DNA of 21,823 nt from Gracilaria domingensis. Lineage: Eukaryota; Rhodophyta; Florideophyceae; Gracilariales; Gracilariaceae. The notes below the pieces were generated by a model. The model was not told the origin of the DNA. It made no database searches and saw only the letters and a list, made by a program, of their open reading frames with translations. Every line of letters starts with the position of its first letter. The stretch's first letter is position 1. Of the stretch, positions 1-19,728 are shown one piece after another. Position numbers and translations under genes: made by a program. The stretch spans positions 1 through 21,823 of the forward strand of contig VCMS01000506.1 of assembly GCA_022539475.1 (NCBI GenBank), in the 5' to 3' direction.

Positions 1-786
1 GGCTGACGGAATCGTTGAAGGAGACGAATATCATCGCCTGGGACATCAATGAGTTGCGCCCGCCGATGTACCGGTTGCTCACTCGTTCGAGGCTGACCGA
101 CGACGCCCCCATTCACTCCCGTGCTCGTCGTATGCCTCCTAGGCACAACGAGATCGTAAGAAAGAAGTGGATGAGCTCTTGGAGACTGGTATAATCACCC
201 CTTCGGCGTCAGCCTGGTCCTTTCCAGTGGTCATTGCGACCAAGAAGGACGGCAGGCCAAGGTTCTGCGTTGACTATCGTCAGCTGAACCGCGTGATGAA
301 GCCCGATTGCTGGCCTCTCCCCCGAATTGAGGAGATATTCGACGACTTGGGTGGTGCGAAGGTCTTCACTACACTTGATCTGTTCTGTGGATACTGGCAG
401 GTCGTATGGCGGAAGAGTGCAAAGAGATGACAACATTCACTTGCCGATACGGGACCTATAAGTTTGAGGTAATGCCATTTGGCCTCATGAACGCCCCGTC
501 GACATTCCAGAGGATGATGGATGAAGTTCTCCGTGGCCTACCGTTCGTCAGAGTCTACATTGACGACGTGGTAATCTTCTCAAGACCATGGAGGACACCT
601 GGAACATTGTCGGGCGGTGTTCGAGCGCATTCGCGAAGCTGGTCTCAAGGTTAAGGTGACCAAGTGCAGCTTTGCACAGTCGAAGATTAAGTTGCTAGGA
701 CACGTTTTGGACGGAGAGGGTATCTATGCCGATGAAGAGAAGGTTTCGGCGATCTTGAAGGCCCTGTACCAAGAAACGCGTCCGAG
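1..786 (+). pseudogene. pol: Element A reverse transcriptase, N-terminal and palm regions, multiply frameshifted
   Basis: This encoded the RNA/DNA-dependent DNA polymerase of element A. RT landmarks lie in successive frames: the pre-palm region from base 3, RFCVDYRQLN near 270-300, TTLDLFCGYWQ near 367-400, the MPFGLMNAPSTFQ fingers/palm block near 472-510, and the active-site YIDD near 556-567. The frame steps by -1 five times, near 160-166, 402-404, 580-583, 594-597 and 761-764. Each step is what one missing base would produce, and family sequences argue for one more base at each point. The region cannot encode RT as it stands. Decay or assembly error are both possible causes. RT identity is certain. 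Confidence 0.93.
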
Positions 787-1551
787 TTGAGGAGCTTTTT
801 GGGCTTAGCTGGATACTACCGCAGATTCATCAAGAACTTCGCCGAGAGCTCAGCTGCATTGCACGCGGCGACCTCGACGAAGCGCGGGAAGTTCGTGTGG
901 ACAGAAGAGATGCAGGATGCTTTCGAGGATCTGAAGATGAAGCTAACGACTCCACCAGTGTTGGCCTATCCGGACTTCGCGGAGCCTTTCATCGTCGAGA
1001 CGGATGCGTCTTCCGTGTCCCTTGGGGCGGTTCTCTGTCAGAAGAAAGAGGATGGGAAGGTACATCCCATCCACTACGTCTCACGCACGATGACTGAGGC
1101 AGAGAGGAAGTACAGCACCTGCGAAAGGGAAGCCCTTGCAGTGGTGTTTGCGTTCAAGAAGTTCCGCGTGTACCTCCTCTCCGAGAACATATTCGAAGTA
1201 ATAACGGACCACCAGGCTTTGCAGTATGCGTTCAGGAAAAGGGACATCCATGGGCGCTTGGCCCGCTGGATGGACTTCATGGCGGAGTACAACTACCGCG
1301 TCCGGTACGGCCCTGGTCCAGAGAACAAAGGACCCGATTATCTGTCGAGGATTGAGATTGAGGGAGGTGGCGAGCCGCTGGACAGTGCGGAGGAGTTTGT
1401 CACCGCCGTGTTGTGGGAAGACCCGAACCTGTCGGAGTTGGAGCCGTATTTGTTGAACATCGCAAGGTTCTTGGCCGATGTGCCTATCCAGGAGCACAAC
1501 ATCATGCTCCGTCAGGCGATCCGGCGCAATGCCAAGAAGTTCATGTTGTAG
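787..1551 (+). pseudogene. pol: Element A RT connection and RNase H, ended by a premature TAG
   Basis: The frame is open from the RT thumb/connection motif (RSFLGLAGYYRRFIKNFAE) into a complete Ty3-type RNase H. RNase H shows the ETDAS aspartate motif near 1000-1014, CEREALAVV with the catalytic glutamate near 1120-1146, TDHQAL near 1204-1221 and PDYLSR near 1333-1350. The reading stops at TAG 1549-1551. The same frame continues directly into the integrase zinc finger, so the TAG is a nonsense change inside a once continuous polyprotein rather than a natural end. RNase H would have removed the RNA template strand. Apart from the stop, this segment has no visible lesions, unlike the RT part. 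Confidence 0.9.
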
Positions 1552-1803
1552 AACAACACGTTGTTTCGTCGAGAGCCGGCCGGGTTGACCGCGGTTCCTT
1601 CGAAAGACGGACGTTTGGAGGCACTGAAGATGCTTCACGATGACATAGGGCACTGGGACGAAGGAGCAACGAGGAAGTTGGTCCGCGAAAGGTTCTGGTG
1701 GCCGTCGGTATATGATGACGTCAAGGATTACGTTCGAGGGTGTGACGAGTGTCAACGCGCCGCCAATCCTGCGGTGTATCGCACCATCCTCAGAACCCCA
1801 GTG
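1552..1803 (+). pseudogene. pol: Element A integrase, N-terminal HHCC zinc finger (first half of split gene)
   Basis: This is in the same frame as the RNase H segment and follows its TAG. It has the integrase zinc-binding pattern: HDDIGHW supplies the two histidines and GCDECQ the two cysteines, with the FWWP block between them. The reading frame is intact up to codon GTG at 1801-1803, where element B begins. It resumes without a frame change at 13524. Element B therefore landed between the zinc finger and the catalytic core. Translation running past 1803 into the LTR is meaningless. Confidence 0.9.
1799..1803. repeat. Target-site duplication of element B, left copy (CAGTG)
   Basis: The five bases CAGTG directly precede the TG end of the left LTR. 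They recur at 13519-13523 directly after the right LTR. Five base pairs is the usual stagger for Ty3/gypsy integrases. Confidence 0.93.
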
Positions 1804-2375
1804 TGTGGTATAGCCGATCGGTGCGAGCTGCTAGTGGGGAGCCCTGCGTGGGCTCGACCCGGCGGAGGAGTGAAACACGTGACACCTAATAGGTCGGCAG
1901 CACCCACCATTGCCTATAGTGCACGGTGACCAAGTGGTAAATACGCCTGCACTGGTGTGCGGCAGGCACGTATAACCCTCGAGGTCAGCAAAACTATTAG
2001 AGGACTACTAGACTTACCAATTGGTGACTGTAGAACCGAACTGGTGTCAAATTAGCCTAGTTGGTGCTTGAATTTACCATTTGGTGTGGGAGGTTGGCGT
2101 CTCGGGGGTTTAGTACCCCCGAGCGCCCCTCCGGCTCTCACGGGTCTAGTGCCACGTGGGCCACCGGGAGGTGCATTTGTGGTGCACCACCCCGGCCACA
2201 TATCTACACTACCTAGTAAATATTAATTCTAAATTAACGAGAATAGACTAATTAGTCTTGTCCAAGCCTGCGCTTGCGCGTCCCACGTGGTACAATAGGC
2301 ACACGTGCCCGGGAGCCCGTGACGTCACCACTTGGTCTTGTAGAGCCCCCGTTGATCCGGCCGGGCTATACTACA
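1804..2375 (-). repeat. Element B 3' LTR (left copy)
   Basis: This 572 bp direct repeat matches 12948-13518. It starts TGTGGTATAG and ends TATACTACA on the + strand. Differences from the other copy are A1909 versus G13053, A2072 versus C13216, and a run of five C at 2116-2120 versus four. An AT-rich patch near 2216-2257, inside otherwise GC-rich sequence, includes the 12 bp palindrome GACTAATTAGTC at 2246-2257 and is the likeliest core-promoter area. This is inferred, and the U3/R/U5 borders cannot be set by eye. There are five CCANNTGG sites, at 1929, 2016, 2076, 2282 and 2327. Lying upstream of the + strand gene at 3368, this LTR could also promote that gene. Confidence 0.95.
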
Positions 2376-2388
2376 GACCCCCCTCCTA
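2376..2388 (-). promoter_or_regulatory. Element B polypurine tract next to the 3' LTR
   Basis: Read on the - strand, a tract AGGAGGGGGG plus TC lies immediately before the 3' LTR. This is where the plus-strand primer of an LTR retrotransposon is expected. The two extra bases between the purines and the LTR are slightly unusual. Two similar purine boxes lie inside the element, at 6235-6250 and 9651-9664. Confidence 0.65.
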
Positions 2389-3367
2389 CCGACAGGCACG
2401 CCCCGTGGCTGCGAAGTTCCCACGGCGTTTGCCGCCTTTTCGCCAAACGGTCGTCGGCGCGCATCGCCTGGCGCACGGCGCGTCTCGCGATGACGCGAAG
2501 ATGGCGCGGTGCACGGCGCGGTTCGCCACATGCACTGAAGCGCCATTACCCACGCCGCCGTACCCCTCTGTGGTAGGTGCGATCGTACCTTACGTCCCTC
2601 GTGGTATTGGAACGCGAAACCGCGAACCGCGACCATTCAGGTTGATCTTGTCGCGCGCCTGGTACCACGTGGTTGTCTTCGCCTGTTTGGTCCCTCCCGG
2701 AGGAGTCCGTCACTCCATCTTCCCCTGTCCGTCCTCCCCCTGGGCGGGTTAGTCCCGGCTTACCAGTTGGTTTCGAGCCTCCCTTCGGTGGGGTTCGCAG
2801 TTGTCAACCGATCGGCACACCGCCCCTCGTGGTGTCGCTCCTATTCTCTGTTGGCCACTTGGTCTTGTGCCGTACTGAGGTGATACCTCGTTGGTTCCGA
2901 CACGTACTGTCTCTCCGCTTGAGTGAGGGCGCCACTGGGGTGTCGTTGCCTTGGGCGGCCGCGTCGAGGAGACTCCTGCCCGTGGCTCTTCAGACTTCGT
3001 GACCGTACCGGTGCTGACGCCGCTTCTACCTAGTGGTCTGCCTCATCGGGGTGTTCAGGCTTGCTTCAGGTCCAGCCGAGGGGTTTACCCGACTGCGTGG
3101 CGTTCAGCGCCCCTCCACCTGGTTCCTCGCGGTCTCCTTCCGTCCCTTAGGTTCCCTCTGGGGTGGTTGTACCCTCCCTGGTTCACGGAACCCGTCCAGC
3201 CGGCGCACAACCCTGGTCATTTTCACGGTGTGTCAGCTCGCTCGAGCGGCGTGCCCGTTCTCTGTGACCCCTCAGGCTTCATCTAGTCATCCAATTGGTG
3301 GTGTTCCCCCTCTCGGTTGGTATCCTCCGTGGCACGCTCTCGCTCCAACTCGCGCCTTTTATACCTC
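2376..3367 (+). other. Element B non-coding stretch between 3' LTR and the convergent gene
   Basis: No convincing gene is visible in this 1 kb. Short open frames on both strands have no recognisable composition or motifs. It carries the purine tract at its left edge and five CCANNTGG palindromes (2664, 2762, 2854, 3114 and 3290). For the + strand gene at 3368 it would be the 5' leader or promoter. A TTTTATA stretch at 3356-3362 is too close to the ATG to be its TATA box. Confidence 0.5.
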
Positions 3368-5593
3368 ATGGGTGATCAACCCGCTTCCCCAACGGGGTGG
3401 TCGATGACGTTCGAACGCCGTGAAGACGGTGCCGAGGAGGGCATCGCGCGCGCCCTTCCCGTTGTGGTGGACCTCGGGGGTGAGACGGCGCCGTTTCAAT
3501 CGAATTACCACGTGGTTGACTCTTCGCAGCCCTGTCTGCCGTCCCAGACCGGTACACCTGTGTCCTTTCCATCGGGCGCCGAGGCTCCCGTGGAGGCCAA
3601 CCACTTGGTATTGGAGGAGCCGCACTTCGACCCTATAAAGGGGTATTCGGCTTCTGAAGTCTCCCCCTCGGCGGAGGTCAACCGTTCGGTTCGCGAAACT
3701 GTTGCCTCCCGGTCGAGGATGTCTGGCAAGACCCCTGGGGTAGCGCGCGGCCGCGGAGGTGGCATCTTCAAGCCTAACACGCGGTCGAGTACGCGTTCTC
3801 GTCAAGACCCTTACGGTCGCGGTGGGTATGATCCCTACGCAGCCGCCGCGGGCCCGAGCAACGTTAACCCTCTTGCAGTGGCCGGTACGGTGGAGGCTCA
3901 ACAGCTGAATCCTCATGACCTTAATAGGACGCACGGGCAGCCGCATGCCCACTATGGTGCACGCTTTGCCGATATCTCCGCCGAATTGGTCGCTCTGGGG
4001 AACTGGCCTTTCCACATCAGTTCCTCACTCTGTCCCTTGCGGTTCCGCCACATGGGTCTCACGCAGTATACCGCAATTGCCCGTTGGGATTGTCGCCGGT
4101 TGGAGGCGGTGTCTATGGCACCTCCACCACCACGCAAGGGCGAGAAGCAGAGCCGGTTCGGTCGACAACAGTGTTTCCATGCGCGGCAGCGACACACGAA
4201 GTTTCTATACTACATCCCCGTGGCCGTACCGTCGGATCTCCCCTTCATCCGCTGCGATGGGGAGGTCCACTACTTCCGCCGTTTGGTAGATATCCTTCAC
4301 CGCTTGGACGAACCTGCTACGCACATCGAGGTCGATCTGGAGTACGTCGCGTTTGAGCGCCCTTTAGACACCAATTATTGGACTGACCGTGGGAGGTGGG
4401 CGACCGATGCGATGGCTGAGAGCCGTGTTCGTCACCGTAACAACCGTACGCGGACCATGTTCCTGTTCCACAACGTTGAGTATTGGTCGCAGAGCGACCA
4501 CAACCGCCGGACATGGTATGTCAATCGACCCTCTTGGTGGGACCACTATGAAGTATGTCAGTGGCTGGAAGTGCCGACCCCGCCGGTCCTTGCGTACTTT
4601 GGTAGTAGCATCTCCCTCGAGAGGAACAACGCCTATGCCGTTTGGTCGGTCGCGCGCAGCGAGTGGGCCGTCATGGTGGCTATCCTCGCCCTTCAGGCTT
4701 CCGTGGAAGGTGTGACTTGGGACACGCGCTGCCCTGACAAGTCTGTTGGGATCAGCGGAACTCAACCAGTTGGTCGTATCTTCAATATTCCCAACGATGT
4801 GGTCGGCGACATTCGTGCCATGGGGCTCTCCAACATCGTGGAGGGCACCAAATATACTGCGCAGCAGTTGGATGGCTACCTCACTGCGGTAAGTAACCAC
4901 AATTGGGGGCCTGAACAGGGTTGGGATGTCTACGACCCGGAGGTTCATAGCATCGTGCCTCTCCAACAGCAGCACATGGCTGGCGAAGACCCATTTGGTA
5001 ATGACGATACCGTGATGGTGGCTGCCGAGAACTATGAGTCCCCCGCATTGCCTCCGTCGGCACCTGTACAGGCTACTCCTCCGACCAGCGTGGCTGCGCC
5101 TGTTCCAAGTGGTCCGGCGAACCCTCAGGCGGCTGCTCACCCTCCCGGACGGGCTGCCCAGGGGCCTCTTCGGGTTGGTTTCCAGTCGCTTCCGGTGAAT
5201 CCGGTGCCCCCTGGTGGTGATAGTGGCGCGATACGGAGCACTCTGGCTCGTCTCAACCACGCCTCGATGGTGCACTTCAACCGTCCTGGTCCCAATGACA
5301 TCCTCACCGCTGTGGATACTCTTACCAACTTGCTCCCCGTGGTTGCTCACCACGAGCGGCGCACTTCTGAGCTGCGACAGTTCCGCGACTACTTCCAGCG
5401 CAATCTCTACCGTGAGGTGACAGCCTATGTTGGTCAGTTGAGCAACCTTGTGGAAGGCCACGCGCCGTTACATCGACCCCCTGTGGAAAGTTTTCAACCC
5501 GTACGCTCCTGCGTCACAGCAACCTGCGACCCCAATGGTAGGCTTTGGTGGCCTTGGTACGTATCAACTCCCTGGTGGACCTCCTGGTGGTGA
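3368..5593 (+). CDS. Element B convergent (antisense-oriented) gene, first frame: large protein of unknown family
   Basis: This frame is 741 codons from ATG 3368 (MGDQPAS, with G after the ATG), convergent to pol. I do not recognise the family. The first 120 or so residues are disordered-looking. An Arg/Gly patch (ARGRGGG) and a GRGGYDPYAAA stretch follow near residues 125-165. Residues about 210-560 have globular composition, rich in Trp, Tyr, Arg and His (for example VEYWSQSDHNRRTWYVNRPS), which fits a nucleic-acid-binding fold. The rest is Pro/Ala-rich. The last 45 or so residues (from about 5455) look out of frame, and the natural continuation is the frame 5442-6095. The downstream AATAAA supports a real transcription unit. 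Extra antisense genes of unknown function are known in some plant gypsy elements (established knowledge). Homology to those is not shown. Confidence 0.75.
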   Translation: MGDQPASPTGWSMTFERREDGAEEGIARALPVVVDLGGETAPFQSNYHVVDSSQPCLPSQTGTPVSFPSGAEAPVEANHLVLEEPHFDPIKGYSASEVSPSAEVNRSVRETVASRSRMSGKTPGVARGRGGGIFKPNTRSSTRSRQDPYGRGGYDPYAAAAGPSNVNPLAVAGTVEAQQLNPHDLNRTHGQPHAHYGARFADISAELVALGNWPFHISSSLCPLRFRHMGLTQYTAIARWDCRRLEAVSMAPPPPRKGEKQSRFGRQQCFHARQRHTKFLYYIPVAVPSDLPFIRCDGEVHYFRRLVDILHRLDEPATHIEVDLEYVAFERPLDTNYWTDRGRWATDAMAESRVRHRNNRTRTMFLFHNVEYWSQSDHNRRTWYVNRPSWWDHYEVCQWLEVPTPPVLAYFGSSISLERNNAYAVWSVARSEWAVMVAILALQASVEGVTWDTRCPDKSVGISGTQPVGRIFNIPNDVVGDIRAMGLSNIVEGTKYTAQQLDGYLTAVSNHNWGPEQGWDVYDPEVHSIVPLQQQHMAGEDPFGNDDTVMVAAENYESPALPPSAPVQATPPTSVAAPVPSGPANPQAAAHPPGRAAQGPLRVGFQSLPVNPVPPGGDSGAIRSTLARLNHASMVHFNRPGPNDILTAVDTLTNLLPVVAHHERRTSELRQFRDYFQRNLYREVTAYVGQLSNLVEGHAPLHRPPVESFQPVRSCVTATCDPNGRLWWPWYVSTPWWTSWW

Positions 5594-6095
5594 TCCTGCG
5601 GCACCTTTCCATACTCCGCTTGGTCCTCACAACGTTCCTCTTCCTCCAGCAAGTACTGGGACAGGAGCACCAAGTGGTTTCTCAACTGGTTTCCGTTCGG
5701 CTCCGCTTCCGCCGACGTCCGGTGCTCCTAGGCCGCCTACTGGTCTGACCCCCGGTGCAGGGCCGTCTAGTGGTCTTGCTCCTCCGACCTCTGGTGGCAT
5801 CCCTCCGTCTAGCTTACCGCCTTTCTTCCATCCACCCACTGGTCCTGCGAATACCATGCCGGTAGTCAGCAGCGGTACCCCTGCGGGACCTGCTGGTACT
5901 TCTGCTCCCTTACCAAGTGGTGGTGCGCCACCGAGCGCGGCTAGCGGCGGGGGCGGAAGCTCCGCCGGACCTATGTCGGTGTCCTCTGGTCGTGGAGGTT
6001 CCGCTTCATCTCGCGGGACCTCCCGTGGACGTGGTCGCGGTCGTGGAACCAGTCGTGGACGCGGACGTGGCCGTGGGTCCTCCAAGGCCTCCTAA
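5442..6095 (+). CDS. Element B convergent gene, second frame: Pro/Gly/Ser-rich and Arg-Gly-rich C-terminal part
   Basis: This frame lies +1 to the preceding one and overlaps it at 5442-5593. It begins with a natural-looking stretch (RRYIDPLWKVFNPYAP), then about 130 residues of Pro/Gly/Ser/Thr low complexity. It ends in a GRGRGRG-type tail (about 6000-6090), the composition of RGG-box RNA-binding tails. There is no ATG near its start, so it is probably the C-terminus of the 3368 protein. It would be joined by +1 frameshifting, a very short intron, or a sequence error of one extra base between about 5442 and 5470. It stops at TAA 6093-6095, 38 bases before an AATAAA. Confidence 0.7.
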   Translation, partial: ATLWKATRRYIDPLWKVFNPYAPASQQPATPMVGFGGLGTYQLPGGPPGGDPAAPFHTPLGPHNVPLPPASTGTGAPSGFSTGFRSAPLPPTSGAPRPPTGLTPGAGPSSGLAPPTSGGIPPSSLPPFFHPPTGPANTMPVVSSGTPAGPAGTSAPLPSGGAPPSAASGGGGSSAGPMSVSSGRGGSASSRGTSRGRGRGRGTSRGRGRGRGSSKAS

Positions 6096-6133
6096 GTCAC
6101 CTCGTGGTTCCCTCTCGTGGATTCTTCTCGACT

Positions 6134-6139
6134 AATAAA
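6134..6139 (+). terminator. Polyadenylation signal AATAAA of the convergent gene
   Basis: A canonical AATAAA lies 38 bases after the TAA at 6093-6095. It is followed by GTGTCTTGCATTGTG and then a T/G-rich stretch (near 6165-6180). This is the usual layout of a eukaryotic cleavage and polyadenylation site. It sits in the 150-base gap between the ends of the convergent gene and pol, and supports transcription of the + strand gene. Confidence 0.65.
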
Positions 6140-6236
6140 GTGTCTTGCATTGTGATCTCTGATCTTCTTTTGTTTTCCTGTTAGGTTAGTTAGTTAGCTT
6201 TTCGTGTAGCGTGGCGTTCAACGGCTTTCGATAACC

Positions 6237-6252
6237 CCCCCCCTTCCTTAGC
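6237..6252 (-). repeat. Purine box copy 2, at the end of pol
   Basis: This is the same 16-base box as 9651-9666, with the G run extended to nine (6243-6235). Here the TAA is the actual stop codon of pol. The box stands in the same frame relation to pol as copy 1. It separates pol from the convergent + strand gene and could serve as an extra plus-strand primer. Confidence 0.75.
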
Positions 6253-9200
6253 GACGCGTACCACGCGAAGCAATACCAGTTGGTGGGGGCGTTCGCCCTT
6301 GTTTGCGCCAGTATCGGATGATGAAGTTGTTAGGGATATGACCAGGTGGTTCCATAGAGTCGTGCTCGGGCGACCATCCATACCATCTTACCCGGTAGCG
6401 CATACCCTTTGTGGTGTGTTCGTGACCTACAATGGTGTCAATAGCGCACTCCTGAGTGTCTACTTGAGGGTGTGACTCTTCCATTTGGTCATGGGGTGCG
6501 TGGCTCCCCGTGGGTGGTGTGACCCGTTGGTCTTGCCGAGGCTCGATCTCCTGTGCCGCTTGGGTCGTGGGGTCAGCCGTTACGGCTCTGGTGGAAGGTT
6601 GACCGCTCGGCTGACTCATCATAGGAGGGGGTATGGGAGACATTTGCTCCCTCTCCGCTTCTTGCTGCGTTGGCTCACCTATTGGTTGTGTATTCGCTGT
6701 CGTCGGTTGTGCGGCCTTGACAATCCTGTCGATGGAGACCGTGTTCTCCAAACCTTCCATTATGACCGTAGCGGTATGCTCATCGGAGCGAATCACCTTG
6801 TATGGTCCCGTGGACTTGGGTAGTAGTTTAGAATTGATATCCTCCTCAAGGCTGATGTCCTCTTCCATCTCCGCTGGGGTTGGTCGCTTACCTTTTGGTG
6901 GCACGTCAAGGAAGACCATGTCTCCTGCTTCCACTTTGGTCACTTTGCTCACCGTTCGGTCATAGTCCGCTTTATACCGTTCTTGGGCTGCTGGCATCTT
7001 AACTTTGGCAGCAGCCAAAGCGGCGCGTAACTTCTGGAGTATGTTTCTCTTGACCTTCGCCGGTGTGAGTGTCCCGGCCGCTTCCGAGCGGTCAGGTCCG
7101 GGCTGGACGATAATACCATGTGGTGTTCGCGAAAGTACCAGGTCGAATGGGGTTGTTTGAGTGACCCTGTGGACCTGGAGGTTGTACGCATATGTCAATG
7201 GTTGGACATACTCCGACCATGTGGTTTGGTGCTCTTCGACATAGTGCCGTAGGCGTGCCACTAGGGTCTTATTGAAGCGTTCCACTTGGCCGTTTGTTTG
7301 CGGATGATAGGCCGTGGTAAAGTAGTGCTTGACCCCTAGCATTGTACAAACCGCCTCGAAGAACTTAGAAGCTAGGTTCGAACCGTTATCGGTCAGTAGG
7401 TACATGGGAGCACCGTACGGGTAGACCCAATTCTCCAGGAAGGCTGTCGCTAGTGTCGTTGCCGTTTGGTTCTTCAGAGGTATGGCTCTGGTGAGCTTTG
7501 TGAACCTGTCGGTTATGACTACTACAAAGCGGTAGCCCTCTGAGGTCTTGGGCAGGGGCCCCAGTATGTCGATTGCTACGAATTCCAGGGGCCCCGCCGC
7601 CGGGAATAGCTTTAGGTACTTCCTGTGCTTCGCCACACCACCTCGGGTCTTAATGCACGAATTGCATTGCGCCACATAGGTATATACATCGTTAGCCATA
7701 TGCGGCCAGTAGAATTGCCTCCGAAGGGTATAGTACAACCGCGTGGCTCCAGGGTGCCCCGAAAGCCGTGGATTGTGTGACAGATATAACACCCTTTGTC
7801 TTAATGACTCAGGTACGACCTTCTGGAGAGCTCCGTCTAAAGGTGAGCGTCTGATGAGGTACCCATTGTGGTCGACGTCGAAATGAGAATCCTTCCTTCC
7901 AAGTACGTCAGCGAGCGTTTTGCACAACCTATCGGTCGATTGTTCGCGTAAGAATTCCTCACGGGTGATTGGAGCGTGTTCCCCTTCCTCCACAGGAAGG
8001 AGGGTCTCCACTACCACTTGGTACGTACTGTCATCATGCCAGTATCCCTTCAGAACTTCATTGACCTCGTGGTTAGCTGGTTCTATAGTAAAGCATGGGA
8101 TGTCGTCGTCCACTGGGTCAGTGTCCAATCCTTCGGTATTCAACCGGGACAATGCATCCGCCACTCGGTGCTTGACCCCGGGGCGGTACTGCACATCGTA
8201 CTCAAACTCCGAGAGTCTCAGACGCCACCGGGCCAGACGACCCGATGCGTCCGCCAAGCCTAATATCCACCTCAAGGAGTCGTGATCCGTTCGGAGCGTG
8301 AAGCGCACACCATATAGGTAAGGACGTAGCATGAGCATACTCCAAACAACCGCTAGGCATTCCTTCTCCGTTACGGTGTAGTTCTGCTCCGCTTGGTTAA
8401 GAGCTCTACTCCAATACCCAATTGGTGCGAGCTTGCCGTCCTCCTGTTCCTGCATTAGGCAGCAACCTATTTGGGCGTCCGACGCATCCGTGTCCAGTGT
8501 ATACGGGAGTCCCGTTTTGGGCAATGCCAGTACCGGTGGGGAGAGAAGCGCTGCTTTCAATGTATAGAACGCCTCTACCTCGTCCTCTTCCAGGTGGTCA
8601 AAGTGTGTGGGCTGCCCCTTCTGCAACCTCCGGTTCAGGGGTGCGGCTATCTTTGCAAAACCCTTGATGAACCGCCGGTAGACGTTGCATAGACCTATAA
8701 AGGATCGTATGTCCGTCTGCGACGTAGAGAGCTTCGCTTCCTGTACCGCTCGGATATTCCGTTTGGTCACTTCGAGTTTCCCGGGGCTTATTGTATGCCC
8801 TAGGTACTCTACCTCTTGGTTGAAGAACATACACTTTCGTAGTTTGAGGGTCACGCCTGCCTCTTGTAGCAACTGCAGTACCACTTGGACGTGCGAGAAG
8901 TGCTCCTCTATGGACCTCGAGTAGATGACTACGTCATCTATGTATACCAATGCGGTTGTCCACTTCACTTTAGACAGTATGATGTCTAACGCCCTTTGGA
9001 AGGTAGCGGGGGCGTTTCTTAAACCAAACGGCATGCGTAAGAAGCGATACAGGCCTGCGTGGCATGTAAACGCAGTCTTATCACGGTCACCCTCTGGTAT
9101 TTCGATCTGCCAATACCCGCAGTTGGCGTCCAGTGTGGTAAAGATGTTCGCATCTCCTAGGGAGTCGATGCATTCATCCATCCTCGGGATGGGGTACGAG

Positions 9201-9661
9201 TCCCTTACCGTTACGGCATTAAGTTTTCTGTAGTCAATACAGAACCTCATACGGGTCTCTCCTTGTTTTCGGACTAGCACTACAGGGCTAGCCCATTCCG
9301 AGTTTGCCGGTTCTATAACCCCCTCGCGGAGCATCCGCTCTACCTCCTCCAGCTCTACCTCACGGGCCTTATGTCCCGCGCGGTATGGCTGTTGGTGGAT
9401 GGGACGGGAGTCCGGTTTGAGGTCAATCCTGTGCTGGGTGGCCTTAATGGCTCCCAGCTTACCCGACCACATGGTACTGAATGGCTCCAGGAGTCCAAGG
9501 ATCTGAGCTCTGAGCTCTTCCCCTTCAAGTCCTATATTCACCTCCGTCTTCCAATTGGTCACTGGGTCGAGCTCCAGTTTCTGGTCTTCTCGCTCAGCTA
9601 GTCGCTGCACCATATGGTCTGTTCGCGACGAATTCAACGAATTGACACTGCCCCCCCTTCC
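6248..9661 (-). CDS. pol: Element B Pol: reverse transcriptase, RNase H, integrase, chromodomain
   Basis: Numbering residues from the TTG at 9637, RT shows TTLD at 167-170, MPFGLRNAPATFQ and active-site YIDD at 232-235. RNase H shows Asp384 (DTDAS), Glu424/426, Asp451 (TDHDSL) and Asp494 (VADALSR). Integrase has HHCC at 621, 628, 658 and 661 and the DDE triad at 690, 750 and 786 (35 residues in the last gap). GPY lies at 944-946, followed by a Gln/Pro linker and a chromodomain at about 1062-1112. The frame has no in-frame stop over 1138 codons. It opens only after TAA 9664-9662 and has no ATG at its start, so it depends on a -1 shift from the protease frame in the overlap 9661-9634. All catalytic residues are present, so the enzyme set looks intact. 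Confidence 0.96.
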   Translation of the reverse strand, partial: GRGGSVNSLNSSRTDHMVQRLAEREDQKLELDPVTNWKTEVNIGLEGEELRAQILGLLEPFSTMWSGKLGAIKATQHRIDLKPDSRPIHQQPYRAGHKAREVELEEVERMLREGVIEPANSEWASPVVLVRKQGETRMRFCIDYRKLNAVTVRDSYPIPRMDECIDSLGDANIFTTLDANCGYWQIEIPEGDRDKTAFTCHAGLYRFLRMPFGLRNAPATFQRALDIILSKVKWTTALVYIDDVVIYSRSIEEHFSHVQVVLQLLQEAGVTLKLRKCMFFNQEVEYLGHTISPGKLEVTKRNIRAVQEAKLSTSQTDIRSFIGLCNVYRRFIKGFAKIAAPLNRRLQKGQPTHFDHLEEDEVEAFYTLKAALLSPPVLALPKTGLPYTLDTDASDAQIGCCLMQEQEDGKLAPIGYWSRALNQAEQNYTVTEKECLAVVWSMLMLRPYLYGVRFTLRTDHDSLRWILGLADASGRLARWRLRLSEFEYDVQYRPGVKHRVADALSRLNTEGLDTDPVDDDIPCFTIEPANHEVNEVLKGYWHDDSTYQVVVETLLPVEEGEHAPITREEFLREQSTDRLCKTLADVLGRKDSHFDVDHNGYLIRRSPLDGALQKVVPESLRQRVLYLSHNPRLSGHPGATRLYYTLRRQFYWPHMANDVYTYVAQCNSCIKTRGGVAKHRKYLKLFPAAGPLEFVAIDILGPLPKTSEGYRFVVVITDRFTKLTRAIPLKNQTATTLATAFLENWVYPYGAPMYLLTDNGSNLASKFFEAVCTMLGVKHYFTTAYHPQTNGQVERFNKTLVARLRHYVEEHQTTWSEYVQPLTYAYNLQVHRVTQTTPFDLVLSRTPHGIIVQPGPDRSEAAGTLTPAKVKRNILQKLRAALAAAKVKMPAAQERYKADYDRTVSKVTKVEAGDMVFLDVPPKGKRPTPAEMEEDISLEEDINSKLLPKSTGPYKVIRSDEHTATVIMEGLENTVSIDRIVKAAQPTTANTQPIGEPTQQEAEREQMSPIPPPMMSQPSGQPSTRAVTADPTTQAAQEIEPRQDQRVTPPTGSHAPHDQMEESHPQVDTQECAIDTIVGHEHTTKGMRYRVRWYGWSPEHDSMEPPGHIPNNFIIRYWRKQGRTPPPTGIASRGTRR

Positions 9662-10797
9662 TTAGCATCCACGACCTCGTGGGACCATTGTGGTATAATT
9701 GTAAAGATCGTACGGGGAGCCGGTAAGGCAAGACCAATTACGGTGTGCTTTGGCAACTTGACCGGGCGGTTGCTGAAGTTACTCAGGTAGACCTGAAACG
9801 GTTTTGTCGGTATGTTGTCGACTATACCATTCGCCATTAAGGTCATGTGTCGTTCGGCCAACCGTGAATGGTTCTGAACGGATAACAGGCCAGGTTGTTG
9901 GCATGTGACCTTCACTACCAAGTGGTTCATAGGCGGTATTGTTACCGCCTTTGCCAATCGCACCTTGTTGGAGAGTGTGTTTTCCGGGACCGGTTGGTGT
10001 CGAGTGCGGTTCTTTTTCGGAGAGGCACCCTTGTGGTTACCAATAATGGCGATCCGGGGGCCATTATGGAACAGAACTGTCTTAGAACGTGGAAAAATTG
10101 CCCTGACATGCTGGTCTATAAAGGTTGTGCCGAGGATACAGTCTGTTGCCAGTTGGTTAACGACTATGAAGCGAACTCGGACCCTCATGGTGTCAATCAA
10201 TACCATTATGGTAAGCGCTCCCATGACGGTTAGTGGTCTGTTGTTGGCGTCAACCAGTGGGTTAGTTAATGTACATGGCTGAAGCTTATTAAGTTGTCTG
10301 TTAGTTAATAGTTTGGCATTCACCAGATTAGGTCCTGCCCCGGTGTCCAGGACAGTGACGCATGGTACCAAGTGGTTAGAAGTAAACCCGAGGGTGACGT
10401 TTACCTTATAGTTACTATGCTTGAGAAAGCATATCGGTTCGGTGCCGTCCATGAGGCTCTCCTCCCCTGTAACCAATGTGTAATTGTCCATACTTGCACC
10501 ACTTGGTTCTGGAAGGCCTTCCGTCTTCGGACAGTTGGGGAAGGCCTCTATCCCAACTGTTCGGCGTTTTCCGCCTGCGGGGCGGGATCCGTTTGGTCCT
10601 GCTCCGTGACGAGGTGTACCTGATGAGGTGTGGCTGCATTGGGTCGCGCATTTGCGTGTCCCGTGCCTGCGCTCCGTGCCGGGGGCCCAAATATATCCTG
10701 GTGGTTCTGCTGGCGAGCAGTCAGGAGAGCGTTCCTGTTCTGCGGAACCACACTTGGGCACGCTGTTGCCAAGTGGTGGGGCGACAAACAGAACCAA
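9634..10797 (-). CDS. Element B retropepsin (aspartic protease) frame
   Basis: The aspartic protease matures Gag and Pol. The active-site loop VLDTGAGPNLV lies at about 10353-10321, and the second conserved block ATDCILGTTF follows about 65 residues later, at the usual distance for retropepsins. The frame is -1 to the zinc-knuckle frame. The protease-like part begins downstream of about 10490, so the crossover must lie between the knuckle (10758) and the TAG at 10548. GGAAAAC at 10572-10566 is a weak slippery-site candidate. The C-terminal 130 or so residues after the protease are a linker of unknown role. The frame ends at TGA 9636-9634 after reading through a run of seven G, where pol begins in the next -1 frame. 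Confidence 0.88.
   Translation of the reverse strand: MVLFVAPPLGNSVPKCGSAEQERSPDCSPAEPPGYIWAPGTERRHGTRKCATQCSHTSSGTPRHGAGPNGSRPAGGKRRTVGIEAFPNCPKTEGLPEPSGASMDNYTLVTGEESLMDGTEPICFLKHSNYKVNVTLGFTSNHLVPCVTVLDTGAGPNLVNAKLLTNRQLNKLQPCTLTNPLVDANNRPLTVMGALTIMVLIDTMRVRVRFIVVNQLATDCILGTTFIDQHVRAIFPRSKTVLFHNGPRIAIIGNHKGASPKKNRTRHQPVPENTLSNKVRLAKAVTIPPMNHLVVKVTCQQPGLLSVQNHSRLAERHMTLMANGIVDNIPTKPFQVYLSNFSNRPVKLPKHTVIGLALPAPRTIFTIIPQWSHEVVDAKEGGAVSIR
9651..9666 (-). repeat. Purine box copy 1, at the protease/pol frame junction
   Basis: On the - strand this is GCTAAGGAAGGGGGGG, identical over 16 bases to 6237-6252. It provides a run of seven G in the overlap where protease must pass into the pol frame. 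It also holds the TAA that closes the pol frame upstream. It may act as a slippery run or as an internal (central) polypurine tract. Both roles are inferred. Confidence 0.75.
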
Positions 10798-11132
10798 CAG
10801 AGGAGATTGCCGGTTGTGGGGTCCTTCATTGCGAGCGACGACGCGCGCGGTGGAGGACGGCCTCCAGTAGGTACTGCACTCCGTTGCTGCGGGTATGGTC
10901 CTTGTTCACCATATTGCTTGAATGGTACCGCTAGGACCGGGCTGACCGGTACGGATACCTGTGATGGTGGAGCTGAGGTTTGTCTCGAGGGTGGCTCGCT
11001 GGATAGCGAGCTGGACCAAGAGGTATTACCGTGCGATCGAGTTGTCGGTTGTGCATGCACCAAGTGGACTGGGTGACCCTGGGAGGCGTATTGTGTGGAC
11101 GCCTCCCCGTAGTGGTCTCCTCTTCCTCTACG
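10548..11132 (-). CDS. Element B nucleocapsid (CCHC zinc knuckle) in the -1 frame of gag
   Basis: This open frame overlaps the 3' end of gag by about 200 bases and lies -1 to it. It encodes a Ser/Pro/Gln-rich segment followed by a CCHC knuckle, CWFCLSPHHLATAC (C-x2-C-x4-H-x4-C), at 10799-10758. This is the RNA-binding nucleocapsid motif normally at the end of Gag. It has no convincing ATG, so it must be reached from gag by -1 frameshifting, or the two frames are one in the true sequence and a base is missing here. It ends at TAG 10548-10550 and overlaps the protease frame by about 250 bases. Confidence 0.8.
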   Translation of the reverse strand, partial: RRGRGDHYGEASTQYASQGHPVHLVHAQPTTRSHGNTSWSSSLSSEPPSRQTSAPPSQVSVPVSPVLAVPFKQYGEQGPYPQQRSAVPTGGRPPPRASSLAMKDPTTGNLLCWFCLSPHHLATACPSVVPQNRNALLTARQQNHQDIFGPPARSAGTGHANARPNAATPHQVHLVTEQDQTDPAPQAENAEQLG

Positions 11133-12814
11133 TCAAACACTGACCGCCTGGTCTTTCCTTTCTCCTTTGATGGTTTGCCGAGTGGTGCGGAGTCTTTCCT
11201 GGCCCCTGACCGAACGGTGTCGCCTAGTCGCTGTGCATGGCGGGCTAGTGCGTTGTAGTCGACCGTGCGGTTGGTAGCTAGGTAGTTACGAACCTGTGAT
11301 CGGATAGACTTCGCCACGTTGTCGGCGTACATCGATTTCAACCTTTTGGTAGTAAAGACGCTTCCACAGCGGGAGGCTAATTCCCATAAGGAGCGAGCGA
11401 ATTCCAATTCGGTTTGTCCCGCGCGCTGGCGGTACGCAAGCACCTCTGCGTACGCCTCCTGGATTACCTCATCGGTCGCGTAGGTTTCCAGTAGGAAGTT
11501 AACCACCTGTGGGTATGTCGTCAACATTTCCGTTTGGTCTTCGTCCACCGCCATGGTGTTTCCTTGGAGGCGGCTGTGGAGCAACGCTCCAGCCTGACCA
11601 GTTAGGTAGAATTGAAACAGCCACATGGCTGCTGCCTCTGAAAACCCATTCTGATCACAAGCGATCTTGAACCTTTGAAGGAAATCAATGATCGCAATAG
11701 GGTCATCCCCGCTAAAGCGAGTTTCACCCAGTTGGAAACGAAGCTTCCTATGATGCTTCGTTATCTTCTGAGCTACCTCTTTGGTATACTCAGCCTGTCT
11801 GTTCTCTAACCTATAGGTACGATAGTCAACCGCTTTGGTGAATAAATCATTGAGCGGCGTAAGCACCTCTAGGTCAGTCTCCTCGTCGGAAGTTGAGTCC
11901 GAATCGTTATACCTTTTGGTCTTACCCTTGCGGGGATTCTTTCCTTTCTTCTTGCGAGAGTCCTTCCTCTTGCGTCGTGAACCTCTACGGTCGTCGTCTC
12001 CTGACGAATCCGAATCGGTGTCTGAGGACGAAGAGTCCGAGTCCGACCGGCGACTCTTTCTCTTTCCCCTTTTGGTTTTCTTCTTCTTACCATTTGGTTT
12101 ACGTCGACGCTCGTCTCCTGAGCTCGACGAATCTCCATCAGGGTCTCCACCATTTGGTCCTGACGGAGCTACACCAGTAGGTTGGGGGAGGTAAACGTAC
12201 CTCGGGCCCTCCATCCCTGGAGGCTCTGCCCCTTTCCCCATACGGTCGATAAATCCTTCACCAGTCGGTTGTGTAGGAAGGTTAGGGTGGAGAATACCAA
12301 GTGGTTTGGTGGCGTCTACTGCAGGCGGGGGAGCTTGCTTCATTAGCGCGGCCTGGGCCACCATCTCAGGTTGAAGCTTAGCCCCCTGCTGCTGCAGAGC
12401 CAGCATAACCAATCGGTCGATGTGTCCTCGCACCTCGTTTTCGAGGTACTGTAACACCACCACAGGTACCTTGTCGAGGACCTCCTGGGAGGCTCGATCA
12501 ACTACCACTCGGGTGACCTCGTCCAAGTCCAGTCGCGGTCCGACTGGCACCTCCATTTGGTCTACCACTGGGGTTGTTACAGGAGCGGGCTCCGCCCTTG
12601 CGGAGCCTGCTCCTCCGTCCACTTGGTCAGCCCGGGGAAGGGTCGAGGGGCCCCCAGCCTCTCGGTCTACCTTCTTCCCCCTCGGTGGGCGTTCCTTCCG
12701 AATCAGGTCCTCCGGGTCATCCAACACCGGATAGGACACTGAACCCCGTATGGGGTGACCACTTGGTGGAGCGCTCGGCGCCCTATTTGGGTAGCGCGCG
12801 CCCCGTTTCTCCAT
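10931..12814 (-). CDS. gag: Element B Gag (capsid) protein
   Basis: Gag forms the virus-like particle that packages element RNA. The start is a true ATG at 12814, the first in the transcript after the primer site. The N-terminal 220 residues are Pro/Gly-rich with a helical stretch around 105-160. Residues 225-312 are a Ser/Asp/Lys/Arg low-complexity block with many SDS-type acidic runs between KKKK-type basic runs. Residues about 365-535 look like the retrotransposon Gag capsid domain (FSGDDPIAIIDFLQRF..., ...LEFARSLWELASRCG). The last 55 or so codons look unnatural. The likely continuation is the -1 frame (11132-10548), which holds the zinc knuckle, with a crossover possibly at the GGGG near 11105-11110. 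As written, the frame ends at 10931 without a nucleocapsid domain. Confidence 0.9.
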   Translation of the reverse strand: MEKRGARYPNRAPSAPPSGHPIRGSVSYPVLDDPEDLIRKERPPRGKKVDREAGGPSTLPRADQVDGGAGSARAEPAPVTTPVVDQMEVPVGPRLDLDEVTRVVVDRASQEVLDKVPVVVLQYLENEVRGHIDRLVMLALQQQGAKLQPEMVAQAALMKQAPPPAVDATKPLGILHPNLPTQPTGEGFIDRMGKGAEPPGMEGPRYVYLPQPTGVAPSGPNGGDPDGDSSSSGDERRRKPNGKKKKTKRGKRKSRRSDSDSSSSDTDSDSSGDDDRRGSRRKRKDSRKKKGKNPRKGKTKRYNDSDSTSDEETDLEVLTPLNDLFTKAVDYRTYRLENRQAEYTKEVAQKITKHHRKLRFQLGETRFSGDDPIAIIDFLQRFKIACDQNGFSEAAAMWLFQFYLTGQAGALLHSRLQGNTMAVDEDQTEMLTTYPQVVNFLLETYATDEVIQEAYAEVLAYRQRAGQTELEFARSLWELASRCGSVFTTKRLKSMYADNVAKSIRSQVRNYLATNRTVDYNALARHAQRLGDTVRSGARKDSAPLGKPSKEKGKTRRSVFDVEEEETTTGRRPHNTPPRVTQSTWCMHNRQLDRTVIPLGPARYPASHPRDKPQLHHHRYPYRSARS

Positions 12815-12926
12815 TTAGGTAACTGGCGTCGGAGCCAATTGCTTCGGCAACGGGAACCAAACCACTCGGGTATCTCGTGACTTCCAAATCCTCTCTTCCC
12901 AAAACCACTTGGTAATCCACAGATTT

Positions 12927-12942
12927 CTAGGTCGGGACACCA
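12927..12942 (-). promoter_or_regulatory. Element B tRNA primer-binding site
   Basis: On the - strand, TGGTGTCCCGACCTAG starts five bases after the end of the 5' LTR. Its complement ends in CCA like a mature tRNA. The base expected to be the invariant C61 of the T-stem falls at the right distance from the 3' end, which supports a real tRNA match of about 16 bases. I do not recognise which tRNA it is. It is not the initiator-Met type site (TGGTATCAGAGC). A gag leader of about 110 bases separates it from the gag ATG at 12814. Confidence 0.7.
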
Positions 12943-12947
12943 AAATA

Positions 12948-13518
12948 TGTGGTATAGCCGATCGGTGCGAGCTGCTAGTGGGGAGCCCTGCGTGGGCTCG
13001 ACCCGGCGGAGGAGTGAAACACGTGACACCTAATAGGTCGGCAGCACCCACCGTTGCCTATAGTGCACGGTGACCAAGTGGTAAATACGCCTGCACTGGT
13101 GTGCGGCAGGCACGTATAACCCTCGAGGTCAGCAAAACTATTAGAGGACTACTAGACTTACCAATTGGTGACTGTAGAACCGAACTGGTGTCAAATTAGC
13201 CTAGTTGGTGCTTGACTTTACCATTTGGTGTGGGAGGTTGGCGTCTCGGGGGTTTAGTACCCCGAGCGCCCCTCCGGCTCTCACGGGTCTAGTGCCACGT
13301 GGGCCACCGGGAGGTGCATTTGTGGTGCACCACCCCGGCCACATATCTACACTACCTAGTAAATATTAATTCTAAATTAACGAGAATAGACTAATTAGTC
13401 TTGTCCAAGCCTGCGCTTGCGCGTCCCACGTGGTACAATAGGCACACGTGCCCGGGAGCCCGTGACGTCACCACTTGGTCTTGTAGAGCCCCCGTTGATC
13501 CGGCCGGGCTATACTACA
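12948..13518 (-). repeat. Element B 5' LTR (right copy)
   Basis: This 571 bp copy of the LTR should drive gag-pol transcription leftwards. It carries the same five palindromic sites as the left LTR (13073, 13160, 13220, 13425 and 13470), and the AT-rich patch lies near 13359-13400. The primer-binding site follows on the - strand after a five-base gap. This copy, rather than the left one, is the 5' LTR because the gag start and primer site lie just inside it. Confidence 0.95.
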
Positions 13519-13523
13519 CAGTG
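13519..13523. repeat. Target-site duplication of element B, right copy (CAGTG)
   Basis: This matches 1799-1803 exactly and follows the CA end of the right LTR. The codon GTG of element A integrase is split off here, and the integrase frame resumes. Confidence 0.93.
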
Positions 13524-14366
13524 ACCGGACTGTTCGAAACCTTTTCGATGGACTTCGCTGGGCCCTTGCCGCGTTCACGTACGGGGAAGAGGTTCGTACT
13601 GATTGCGGTGGAACATCTCACAGGATGGCCTATCGCTGTTGCCACGGAGAACTCGGTCTCCGACACCGTCATCAAGTTCATCGAGGAAGAGATTATTCGT
13701 CCGTTCGGTCTTCCGAGGACGATCGTGTCTGATAACGCGAACGCGTTCGTTTCGCGGGCTGTCGACGACTACTTGAAGAAGAAGGAGATCCATAGGAGGC
13801 CAGTCTTGCCGTACGCGCCGATGTCGAACGGTAGGGCTGAGCGTATGGTCGGAACGGTGAAGAAGGCCATCAAGAAGACGGTGATGCGCCCTGGGATAGA
13901 TTGGGAAGAGGCGTTGCCGAAGGTCGTGTATGGCTATCGAAGGCGTCCCCGTGGAGTTGTAGCCTCACCGTTCGAGTTGATGTATGGAGTGAAGCCACGC
14001 ATGATGGCGAACGATGCCATGGCCCTTCTCACAGACGCCACGCCTGAACAGCGAACGCTGGAATTGCTGGGCGTTGCAGGGAAGAGAGCCATGCAAGTCG
14101 CGCGGGGCTTCGTCCCCAGGGAGGAGAAGAAGCAAGTAAGGACGTTCAACGTCCGGGACGAGGTGCTTGTGGCGCATGGACAAGCGCTGAACCCGAAGAA
14201 GAGGTGGCCGGCATTCGAGTCCTTCTTCTATGGTCCGTGTAAGGTGACGAAGGCCCAGCATCCTCGTTACGAACTGGTGTCTTCGCACGGAAGGGTGACG
14301 AGAAATGCAGTACACGCCCGTAGGTTGGTGTTGTACAAGCGTCGCCCCATCCACCTTCGAGCCTAA
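13519..14366 (+). pseudogene. pol: Element A integrase, catalytic core and C-terminal domain (second half of split gene)
   Basis: Bases 13519-13523 are the second copy of the target duplication. From 13524 the integrase resumes in the frame left at 1803. The DDE triad is visible: Asp in FSMDFAGP at 13551, Asp in IVSDNA at 13731 and Glu in NGRAER at 13839. That gives 59 residues between the aspartates and 35 before the glutamate, the normal retroviral-type integrase spacing. The C-terminal part has a GPY/F-like FYGPCKV block and ends RRPIHLRA followed by TAA. The half gene is open but has no start of its own, since anything upstream is LTR sequence. It would have inserted element A cDNA into the genome. 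Confidence 0.93.
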
Positions 14367-14997
14367 GTCCTGTGGTTGAACTGGTTTCAGAACAGACGGT
14401 AGGTCTTTTAGTCGCTGAGCGGGGGCGCACCAGAGGTTGTGTGCCCCGTCGCGCAGTTGAGGAAACATCGCCGTCGAAAGTCAAAGGAAATAAGCGAAGT
14501 AAATGGAAGGCGAAGAGCGTGGAGATAAACGTCTGTGTTCTGCAAAGTGGAATATAGTCTGTTCGCTTTGGAAACTAAGCTAGTTTTGGGGCTATTTGGG
14601 GCGCGCGAGGGGGTAGCAGAGGCTGGCACTCAAAAAATTAAGAAATTTTGGAATATTAAATTCCATTTCGCGCAGTTTAGTGCTTGGGTCCCCTAGTTTT
14701 TGTAGAGGTTCTACTTCGCCGCACCACCCCATTCACTCTTTTCCGCGACCCTCTCTCAAAACTGCACTCGTGCTAGTTTGCCTTTCCATTTTCTCCCATG
14801 TTGCAATGCCAATCGCAACTCATCCCACTTCAATCATCCCATCACTTCTTCCCAGTCCACACCACCCCCGCTATTTACCCATTTCTCGCCCATCACGCGT
14901 TCCCATCCTCTCTCTCCGTCTCCGCAAACGTCATTTTGTAGAAGTCAGGTGGACAACCCTCCCCCTTCTCGTATACCCGCCTCGCCCCAAAACGGCT
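14367..14997. other. Downstream flank of element A and pyrimidine-rich intergenic DNA
   Basis: After the element A integrase stop there are about 250 bases with purine-rich stretches (for example near 14480-14525) that may be the 3' untranslated part and possibly a degraded LTR. No paired repeat is present in the window to prove it. Around 14625-14672 the sequence turns AT-rich. From about 14700 it becomes strongly C/T-rich on the + strand, continuing through the next gene. I see no convincing coding sequence here. Confidence 0.4.
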
Positions 14998-15927: not shown

Positions 15928-16166
15928 CTTCAGAAGAAGAAGTAGTAGTTGGATCGAAGTTTCCGCTGCGATACAGTGCAATCGAGCTAAACTGTCCTGT
16001 CCACCCCCACTGTCCAACCACACGGGCTATATCCAGCACCATGATTGTCCCTGTTTCCCTCATCCCATTTCCCGCCAAAACATCTACTGTACACCTTCGC
16101 GCCTTCCACTACTTAAGCGCCATCTCTCTGTCTCCTCTTCGCGCTCACATAATCCCCACCCACCTC

Positions 16167-16249: not shown

Positions 16250-16290
16250 AAGCTAGGGACTAGTGATTGCACTTAGAGTTGCTCACCCTC

Positions 16291-19698: not shown

Positions 19699-19728
19699 TA
19701 AAAGTGTCGTGTATATCTCAATACCCTT

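Follow-up and report, generated by a model that had tools for sequence, protein, structure and literature searches.

Papillomavirus E2 and EBNA1 of Epstein-Barr virus (EBV) are dimeric proteins for which their viral genomes provide several palindromic sites, and the E2 sites are clustered ACC/GGT half-sites with a fixed gap of 6. In the VANDAL elements of Arabidopsis, the motif of VANC21, YAGTATTAY, is non-palindromic, often tandem-repeated and mainly non-coding according to the available sections of Hosaka et al. 2017 (PMC5735166). Plant Gypsy retrotransposons carry antisense open reading frames (aORFs), the function of which is given as unknown in the accessible part of PMC7264820. Here, a 21,823-nucleotide stretch of the red alga Gracilaria domingensis (contig VCMS01000506.1, hereafter the window) was analyzed for a Ty3/Gypsy long terminal repeat (LTR) retrotransposon of the chromovirus type, element B (1804-13518, minus-strand orientation). 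The more than 100 palindromes in B, together with the versions found in its sister families, suggest a label by which such an element recognizes its own RNA or DNA.

The word CCANNTGG was found 53 times in the element (counted over 1795-13518) and twice in the other 10.1 kb (475 and 21010), and ACCANNTGGT 30 times in the element and once in the rest of the window. An earlier note on this DNA had counted about 48 and 1 for CCANNTGG; the excess it reported is real and larger than noted. In 300 dinucleotide-preserving shuffles, the element yielded 4.2 copies of CCANNTGG (maximum 14) and 0.3 of ACCANNTGGT (maximum 3), and the rest of the window 2.6 and 0.17, respectively. The actual unit consists of an ACC and a GGT arm 4, 5 or 6 bases apart, with 61, 35 and 18 sites against 8.3 expected per gap; other gaps within 0-21 gave 1-9 sites each, and the reverse order GGT-gap-ACC gave 2-12 sites at gaps 0-25. 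The ACC-N4-GGT sites had been recognized before as looser forms, while those with gaps of 5 and 6 had been missed.

To compare copies, 8 diverged B copies with an identity of 0.81-0.97 to the window were taken from 65 match rows. The copies are interrelated and their comparisons not independent, one (C125) aligned over only 6.1 kb, and the tests omit the 3' LTR and unaligned stretches. CpG bases were dropped in the mismatch comparison, outside the arms only in the fourfold test and on both sides in the per-gap test. Mismatches were rarer in the arms than in the flanks for gap 4 (0.058 vs 0.126), gap 5 (0.042 vs 0.119) and gap 6 (0.058 vs 0.097). Fourfold-degenerate bases in the arms were changed in 43 of 699 comparisons, where 172 were expected, and the ratio of observed to expected changes by gap was 0.18 (N4), 0.37 (N5), 0.19 (N6) and 0.28 (N7). 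The control ratios were 0.93 for ACC-N8..20-GGT, 1.17 for lone ACC/GGT and 0.90 for GGT-N0..20-ACC excluding dyad bases. Small classes scattered in the per-gap test (ACA-N4..5-TGT 2.5; ACG 0/7 and GAC 0/14 changed). The nucleotides of the arms are thus under strong selection at synonymous bases in B, and the comparison of copies that the earlier note had proposed shows its sites conserved above background. Copies have some sites that the window lacks, and two of these (3313 and 4313) differ there at 4-5 of 10 bases, indicating that sites turn over while the density stays. Several lost sites in B copies were G-to-A changes (TGGT to TGAT or TAGT), as if deamination were eroding the old copies.

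The earlier note had also seen an E-box in the core CANNTG, and host basic helix-loop-helix (bHLH) transcription factor sites spread by the element would account for a CANNTG inside the motif. This is not supported. CANNTG as such was weakly enriched in B (83 vs 47 expected), CA..TG pairs were enriched at spacing 2 only (1.7x), and most of the signal lies in the outer ACC/GGT arms with their 4/5/6-base gaps, the ACC/GGT sites at gaps 5 and 6 being enriched and conserved too. bHLH sites favor CG or GC centers, which made up 4/47 and 0/47 of the two-base centers in B. Sister families of the same host use other motifs (see below). The E-box explanation is very improbable.

The earlier note had placed the element at 1929..13479; the element itself was confirmed, with ends slightly outside these positions. 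Its features, those of the field of repeats and those of its surroundings are as follows.

1804-2375, minus strand: 3' LTR of B (element sense), with the ends TGTGGTATAGCC...GGCTATACTACA
2376-2386, minus strand: polypurine tract, GGAGGGGGGTC in sense, adjoining the 3' LTR
2376-3367, plus strand: stretch preceding the antisense gene, no gene assigned, 7 ACC-N4..6-GGT sites
3368-6095, plus strand: extra antisense gene, convergent with pol, between pol and the 3' LTR
6248-9637, minus strand: pol, with reverse transcriptase, RNase H, integrase (H2C2, rve) and C-terminal chromodomain, by Pfam
9634-10797, minus strand: protease region, by a weak match to gag-asp_proteas that falls short of the curated cut-off (E 0.009)
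10931-12814, minus strand: gag, assigned by position
12927-12942, minus strand: probable primer binding site, TGGTGTCCCGACCTAG in sense, adjoining the LTR, no tRNA compared
12948-13518, minus strand: 5' LTR of B (element sense)
1804-12947, no strand: inverted-repeat field of ACC-N4/5/6-GGT with 61, 35 and 18 sites
1-1803, plus strand: left half of element A, another Gypsy element and host of the B insertion, RNase H match, no site excess
13519-14366, plus strand: right half of element A with the integrase core, rve match of frame 13401-14366
17117-18208: host protein, 97% identity over 63% of length to a Gracilaria domingensis hypothetical protein

The sites occurred in LTRs, non-coding stretches and genes on both strands, as the earlier note had stated, and every compartment of B, the leader included, had 6.6-15 per kb; the 3' LTR (1804-2375) alone contains 5 ACC-N4-GGT and 3 ACC-N5-GGT. 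Outside B, 1-1803 had a density of 0.6 sites per kb and 13519-21823 one of 0.1. In 1000 synonymous-codon shuffles per open reading frame (ORF), CCANNTGG was expected 2.7 times in gag (observed 9), 1.5 times in the protease region (5), 4.3 times in pol (13) and 1.5 times in the plus-strand ORF 3368-5593 (6), whereas the 2 copies in the short frame 5448-6095 (0.6 expected) were not significant, being reached in 112/1000 shuffles. In each of gag, protease, pol and ORF 3368-5593, the ACC-N4-GGT sites were spread over the three codon phases, but those in frame 5448-6095 shared a single phase (5/5). Both kinds of shuffle being exceeded, composition, codon usage and a peptide repeat do not explain the excess, as the earlier note had held for the last two.

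The form of the sites was further analyzed in B and, for genome-wide counts, in the 77.9-Mb assembly of 680 contigs. ACCANNTGGT was present 4164 times and the reversed word 1620 times; ACCGNNCGGT occurred 1908 times and the mixed word 1308 and 1403 times, which gives matching inner bases an odds ratio of 4.3. In the scan of the genome that the earlier note had called for, those of the first 100 places that lie on contigs C1-C3 were nearly all scattered singles, and the one dense cluster, on C4, was a copy of the B family. In B, inner pairs with a 2-base center matched in 35 cases where 24.5 were expected (0/2000 permutations). Read on the sense strand, the center showed a direction, with the form ACC-A-[A/C]-N-[T/A]-GGT (strand symmetry, p=0.0003): position 2 of the gap-4 loop was A31 C21 G5 T4, and position 3 was even. 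The loop was also directional at gap 5 (p=0.004), no directionality was detected at gap 6, and the direction was the same in gag-pol (p=0.0002) and in the half from LTR to antisense gene (p=0.16 alone). The excess arm length in B was 3-4 bp. A few longer stems were present in 1804-12947 (sense), with 8 of 7 bp (2.0 expected) and 3 of 8 bp (0.4 expected).

A reverse transcriptase search of the genome, with 150 of 1776 candidates scored, provided three sister families, C70 (L050), C24 (L051) and C45 (L052), each seen in one 10-kb stretch; sister families share about 70% nucleotide identity over pol. The earlier note had held that a similar density in unrelated elements would speak against its proposal, and this objection holds in part. 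ACCANNTGGT was counted 0 times in each of C70, C24 and C45, but each has its own dyad version, with ACC-N6-GGT among these in two, so that the four families looked at carry four different versions. Among the 16 self-complementary dinucleotide pairs, CC..GG was prominent, at 2.2-2.6x expectation at its peak distance (B 4, C70 6, C24 9, C45 6); the second-highest pair in B, AC..GT (2.0), belongs to the same motif, and GG..CC was at or below 1.5. The dyads have a polarity, C arm first and G arm second: against codon shuffles in gag-pol of the four families, CC..GG reached z 6.1-9.8 and GG..CC at most 3.8.

In the three sister families, perfect 4-bp inverted repeats with gaps of 3-5 exceeded expectation two- to threefold. 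Observed/expected numbers at gaps 4/5 were 134/41 and 115/40 (C70), 115/42 and 131/42 (C24), and 111/40 and 76/40 (C45), also above codon shuffles (z 5.1-11.6). In B, where 46 were expected, 98 were counted at gap 2 and 84 at gap 4. No excess at gaps 4/5 was seen in 2.8 kb of element A (12/11, 14/11), and host stretches were near expectation (29/26, 32/24 and 49/47, 55/49); the latter were window 14485-21823 and L001-L004, the L stretches having been chosen for one ACCANNTGGT each. The excess arm length in the sister families was mainly 4 and partly 5 bp. Each family has outer bases of its own, C70 using [A/C]C, C24 CC, C45 [T/C]C and B AC, and the inner two arm bases are nearly free yet paired, except that the third base favors C in C45 and B.

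The inner pairs of the sister families were Watson-Crick in all four types. With the outer pairs fixed, both inner pairs were Watson-Crick in 395 cases against 91 expected, one other inner mismatch was seen in 306 against 350, and A-T pairs were enriched about as much as G-C. Across the genome, CCGA-N4/5-TCGG occurred 9700 and CCAA-N4/5-TTGG 5031 times, the mixed forms 2475 and 2515 times (odds ratio 7.8), although repeated copies inflate these counts; identical arms at gap 12/13 gave 2709 and the reversed polarity 2379. Such covariation of pairing arms is what RNA hairpins would show. Because it extends over all four pair types, either the arms physically pair or one arm is copied into the other.

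If the second holds, template switching in short inverted repeats would make the arms identical without any function, a process that homogenizes inverted-repeat arms according to the part of PMC8604942 available. Each arm repeats the other exactly in inverted form, and the strength of the base pairs matters little, which fits this explanation. The preferred outer bases, the polarity of each family and the synonymous-site conservation in B argue against such a mutational by-product, as does the dominance of ACC/GGT in B, and fold-back priming would presumably bias the inner and not the outer pairs. We therefore give it a slight probability.

Pairing of the arms would point to a single strand, RNA or complementary DNA (cDNA). 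The same dyads have to be weighed as double-stranded DNA (dsDNA) sites for an element-encoded dimeric protein, perhaps the product of the antisense gene, which would keep the element's own copies open for expression as VANC does. B alone resembles a conventional palindrome, the dyads are strictly symmetric without G.U, B covaries with a 2-base center, and VANC motifs likewise accumulate in one transposable element family and differ between families, as far as described in the portion of PMC5735166 at hand. The rapid divergence of the antisense gene (about 47% amino acid identity between the C45 and C70 types, against about 70% of nucleotides over pol) also speaks for this explanation. A fixed half-site reading does not, however, predict inner bases that span all four pair types and still match, and the several gap lengths and the directional center of B are equally foreign to it; inner bases that vary but match, together with the variable gap, argue against a plain dsDNA dimer. 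The covariation of the inner arms led us to treat the simple symmetric dimer as a rival that is unlikely, though of some weight. Of the symmetric DNA-binding protein in the earlier note, selection on the sites was borne out and a plain reader of dsDNA became doubtful, given the directional center, variable gap and covarying inner bases.

The element-encoded candidate for a reader is the antisense gene. In the window copy, it is frameshifted (frames 3368-5593 and 5448-6095), and its protein has an Arg-Gly-rich C-terminus. A genome search in which 60 of 1140 candidates were scored gave at least 65 match rows, and the 935-aa frame was without inner stops in 13 of the 65. The ratio of nonsynonymous to synonymous substitution rates (dN/dS) was 0.10-0.18 for the young copies L006 and L030 against seven diverged copies; in this the antisense ORF behaves as a real gene. 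The ratio was 0.21 between L006 and L030. Among the seven diverged copies, of which five are interrupted by inner stops, it was 0.25-0.81, a range to be expected of copies in decay. Between L030 and L006, antisense codons 1-200 had a dS of 0.44 against 0.11 and 0.03 elsewhere, which may reflect recombination or a fast-evolving N-terminus. The antisense frames gave no Pfam match at E 0.1, including the VANC family (DUF1985/DUF287), no PDB sequence match at E 1 and no relative at E 0.01 among 5.8 billion proteins (7993 candidates scored). A single-sequence fold model had a mean predicted local distance difference test (pLDDT) score of 30 and was unusable. A scan of viral_contigs with pol gave 1 pattern match, which was not a relative.

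In a three-locus comparison, the B antisense protein was 37.5% identical over 56 aa (E 8e-6) to the product of an antisense ORF that follows pol in C45. With 126 of 1092 candidates scored, the C45 piece had at least 162 genome matches, and the subfamilies among these reached as low as about 42% identity; one match, C70:11599-12624, abuts the C70 pol, and B copies were absent among the matches listed. C24 has a related antisense C-terminus at the same place (28% over 106 columns, partly low-complexity, E 5e-9). These E-values come from comparisons of few sequences (two for C24, with composition uncorrected) and are not database-search values. With relatives convergent with pol in B, C45, C70 and C24, each of the four dyad-field families carries the antisense gene, the link being weakest for B. 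In the 2.8 kb of element A seen, a single short case, there was no dyad field, and no antisense gene was recognized in the ORF list; no homology search was made there.

This distribution bears on a further explanation, in which small hairpins in sense and antisense RNA would prevent annealing and RNA interference. Strict Watson-Crick pairing would follow from this, because what is a G.U in one transcript becomes an A.C in the complementary one, and G.U was indeed not tolerated; all four families have the convergent gene, and element A, with no such gene recognized in its short stretch, lacks the excess. For plant elements, the available part of PMC7264820 discusses double-stranded RNA that antisense transcripts give rise to. 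The folding energies are weak, however, the sequence is family-specific, and gag-pol need not be transcribed antisense. We regard this explanation as improbable, about on a par with the mutational by-product.

The best explanation at present, to which we assign a probability of roughly 0.45, is that the dyads are hairpin-type self-recognition signals for a putative nucleic-acid-binding protein encoded by the element. Selection would plant short fold-back inverted repeats along the whole element as recognition signals, and the reader, a protein made by the element itself, would inspect a short Watson-Crick stem whose sequence is read at its base. The repeats would be read in single-stranded form, in the genomic RNA or in cDNA, and the benefit would be that the protein coats, packages, exports or protects the nucleic acid of its own family only. 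The fast-evolving antisense gene product would most likely be the reader, being the first candidate because it diverges so fast relative to pol, with Gag as the second choice. The more specific proposal, held tentatively and with somewhat less confidence, is a family-specific self-complementary code with a co-evolving antisense-encoded reader that would tell own RNA/cDNA from that of sister families. Such a code would consist of at least 100 short inverted repeats through the entire genome of the element, with preferred outer and nearly free paired inner bases.

If Gag were the reader, the dyads would be dispersed Gag-binding packaging hairpins in genomic RNA. The sites span the whole element including the LTRs, and close sites are scarce: fewer than expected lay within 20 bases of each other in B (3 vs 21) and C45 (6 vs 25), while gaps of 40-50 were over-full (15 vs 7.4 and 21 vs 8.2). 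Many dispersed packaging signals have been proposed for MS2 and the pregenomic RNA of hepatitis B virus (HBV) in the accessible text of PMC6281560, and dispersed signals for parechovirus in partly available literature. Against Gag packaging stands the lack of G.U tolerance. The evenness of spacing (coefficient of variation) was significant in C70 and C24 and not in B (p 0.11) or C45 (p 0.14), and inverted repeats cannot overlap anyway. The Gag version is rather improbable in itself and overlaps the best explanation, its odds being mostly part of the 0.45.

Several observations weigh against self-recognition hairpins. G.U is untolerated though A-T is tolerated (a single inner G.U in 56 cases where 75 were expected, a single A.C in 95 where 95 were), and a plain RNA stem should tolerate it; the covarying pair of B leaves a 2-base loop, hard for RNA. 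RNA folding energy was mildly low in the elements (mean z -0.4 to -1.8; host -0.7 and 0.0). An RNA hairpin as the simple answer is retained but made less probable by the missing G.U tolerance and these weak energies. The loops of C70, C24 and C45 were strand-symmetric, with no p below 0.07. The reversed order also showed some signal: GGT-N4..6-ACC was changed in 6/78 comparisons against 19.8 expected (0.30), and in 4/38 against 9.5 (0.42, few sites) without the bases shared with dyads, and GG..CC was in places mildly high against codon shuffles (z up to 3.8 in B and 3.1 in C45). Host 4-bp repeats were in unexplained excess at gap 3 (37/26, z 2.5; 76/49, z 4.0). Few inverted repeats keep their position between families, with 29-44 of 120-164 centers shared against 14-17 when shifted; structural homology between families was rejected since dyad positions mostly turn over. 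Compensatory double changes had no consistent excess, being above control in 4 of 6 comparisons and below in 2 (two-sided changes keeping a pair 0.28-0.51 vs 0.34-0.40 in controls). Finally, the antisense protein is without a domain or usable fold, and its B-C45 link consists of the 37.5% over 56 residues and the position.

The assignment of B to the chromoviruses follows from the Pfam domains RVT_1, RT_RNaseH, Integrase_H2C2, rve and Chromo in sequence. Its LTRs, with TG..CA ends, align over 571 bases with 2 mismatches and one 1-base gap; a target duplication, CAGTG, flanks B at 1799-1803 and 13519-13523, and a polypurine tract and a probable primer binding site are present, the latter by position and TGG start only, LTR-element primer binding sites starting with TGG. 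No Pfam gag family matched the gag frame, and the overlapping frame 10548-11063 has a CCHC-like knuckle, CWFCLSPHHLATACP, recognized by eye. B interrupts a second Gypsy element, A, which occupies 1-1803 and resumes at 13519. Further along, 18728-19363 (plus strand) and 19729-20589 (minus strand) are adjacent, convergent, look-alike HAD-hydrolase-type ORFs, the second by Pfam Hydrolase_3 and the first by eye, and 16567-16872 (minus strand) is an exon-like frame with a partial-length match, below cut-offs, to ribulose-phosphate 3-epimerase models. Elsewhere in the genome, G000:C1:6019-27942 has 24 CCGA-N4/5-TCGG in 22 kb, far above the rest of the contig, and probably holds CC-type elements. Equal-score reverse transcriptase matches lie 11,590 bases apart at G000:C144:60656, 72246 and 83836, as a tandem Gypsy array or an assembly artefact.

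The genes of these retrotransposons thus contain a further level of information, which is conserved at synonymous bases and differs in each family looked at. The code offers a handle on what the antisense genes of Gypsy elements do and on how related retroelements separate RNA, proteins and silencing escape within one cell, and the families of this genome provide ready swaps between reader and code.

Compared with described systems, and as far as their partly available sources reach, each shares some features with element B. Like VANDAL/VANC of Arabidopsis, B has a short family-concentrated motif that differs between related families, beside a diverging accessory gene, and motif density differs between the related families here (three of the four being one copy each); unlike there, the dyads also lie in genes, are scattered, belong to LTR retrotransposons and have covarying arms. 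The variable gap and scattered sites likewise differ from those of E2. The packaging signals of MS2 and HBV (PMC6281560) are also many short stem-loops sharing a recognition motif along the genome, whereas the arms here are strict 3-5 bp Watson-Crick arms without G.U and with sequence preference in the outer pairs; no description of dispersed packaging signals in LTR retrotransposons was found in the open-access literature, seen in part. The genome-scale ordered RNA structure (GORS) of RNA viruses shows a similar genome-wide excess of base pairing in coding RNA, but here 4(-5)-bp arms, with their preferred outer bases, make up most of the excess, and the folding energy is hardly lowered; such short arms speak against general RNA structure. 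The aORF-3R of the plant Gypsy elements Grande, RIRE2 and Retand (PMC7264820) is, like the antisense gene here, a conserved gene opposite gag-pol between pol and the 3' LTR. The protein-database search gave no relation between the two, no direct comparison being made, and the available text of that paper has no mention of palindrom, hairpin or motif. A family-specific inverted-repeat code was not found described in the titles and abstract starts of open-access literature. The observed code may thus be new, as VANC/VANDAL, packaging signals and plant aORFs each come without such a combination in the parts of their sources available, while its mechanism may be a variant of a known one.

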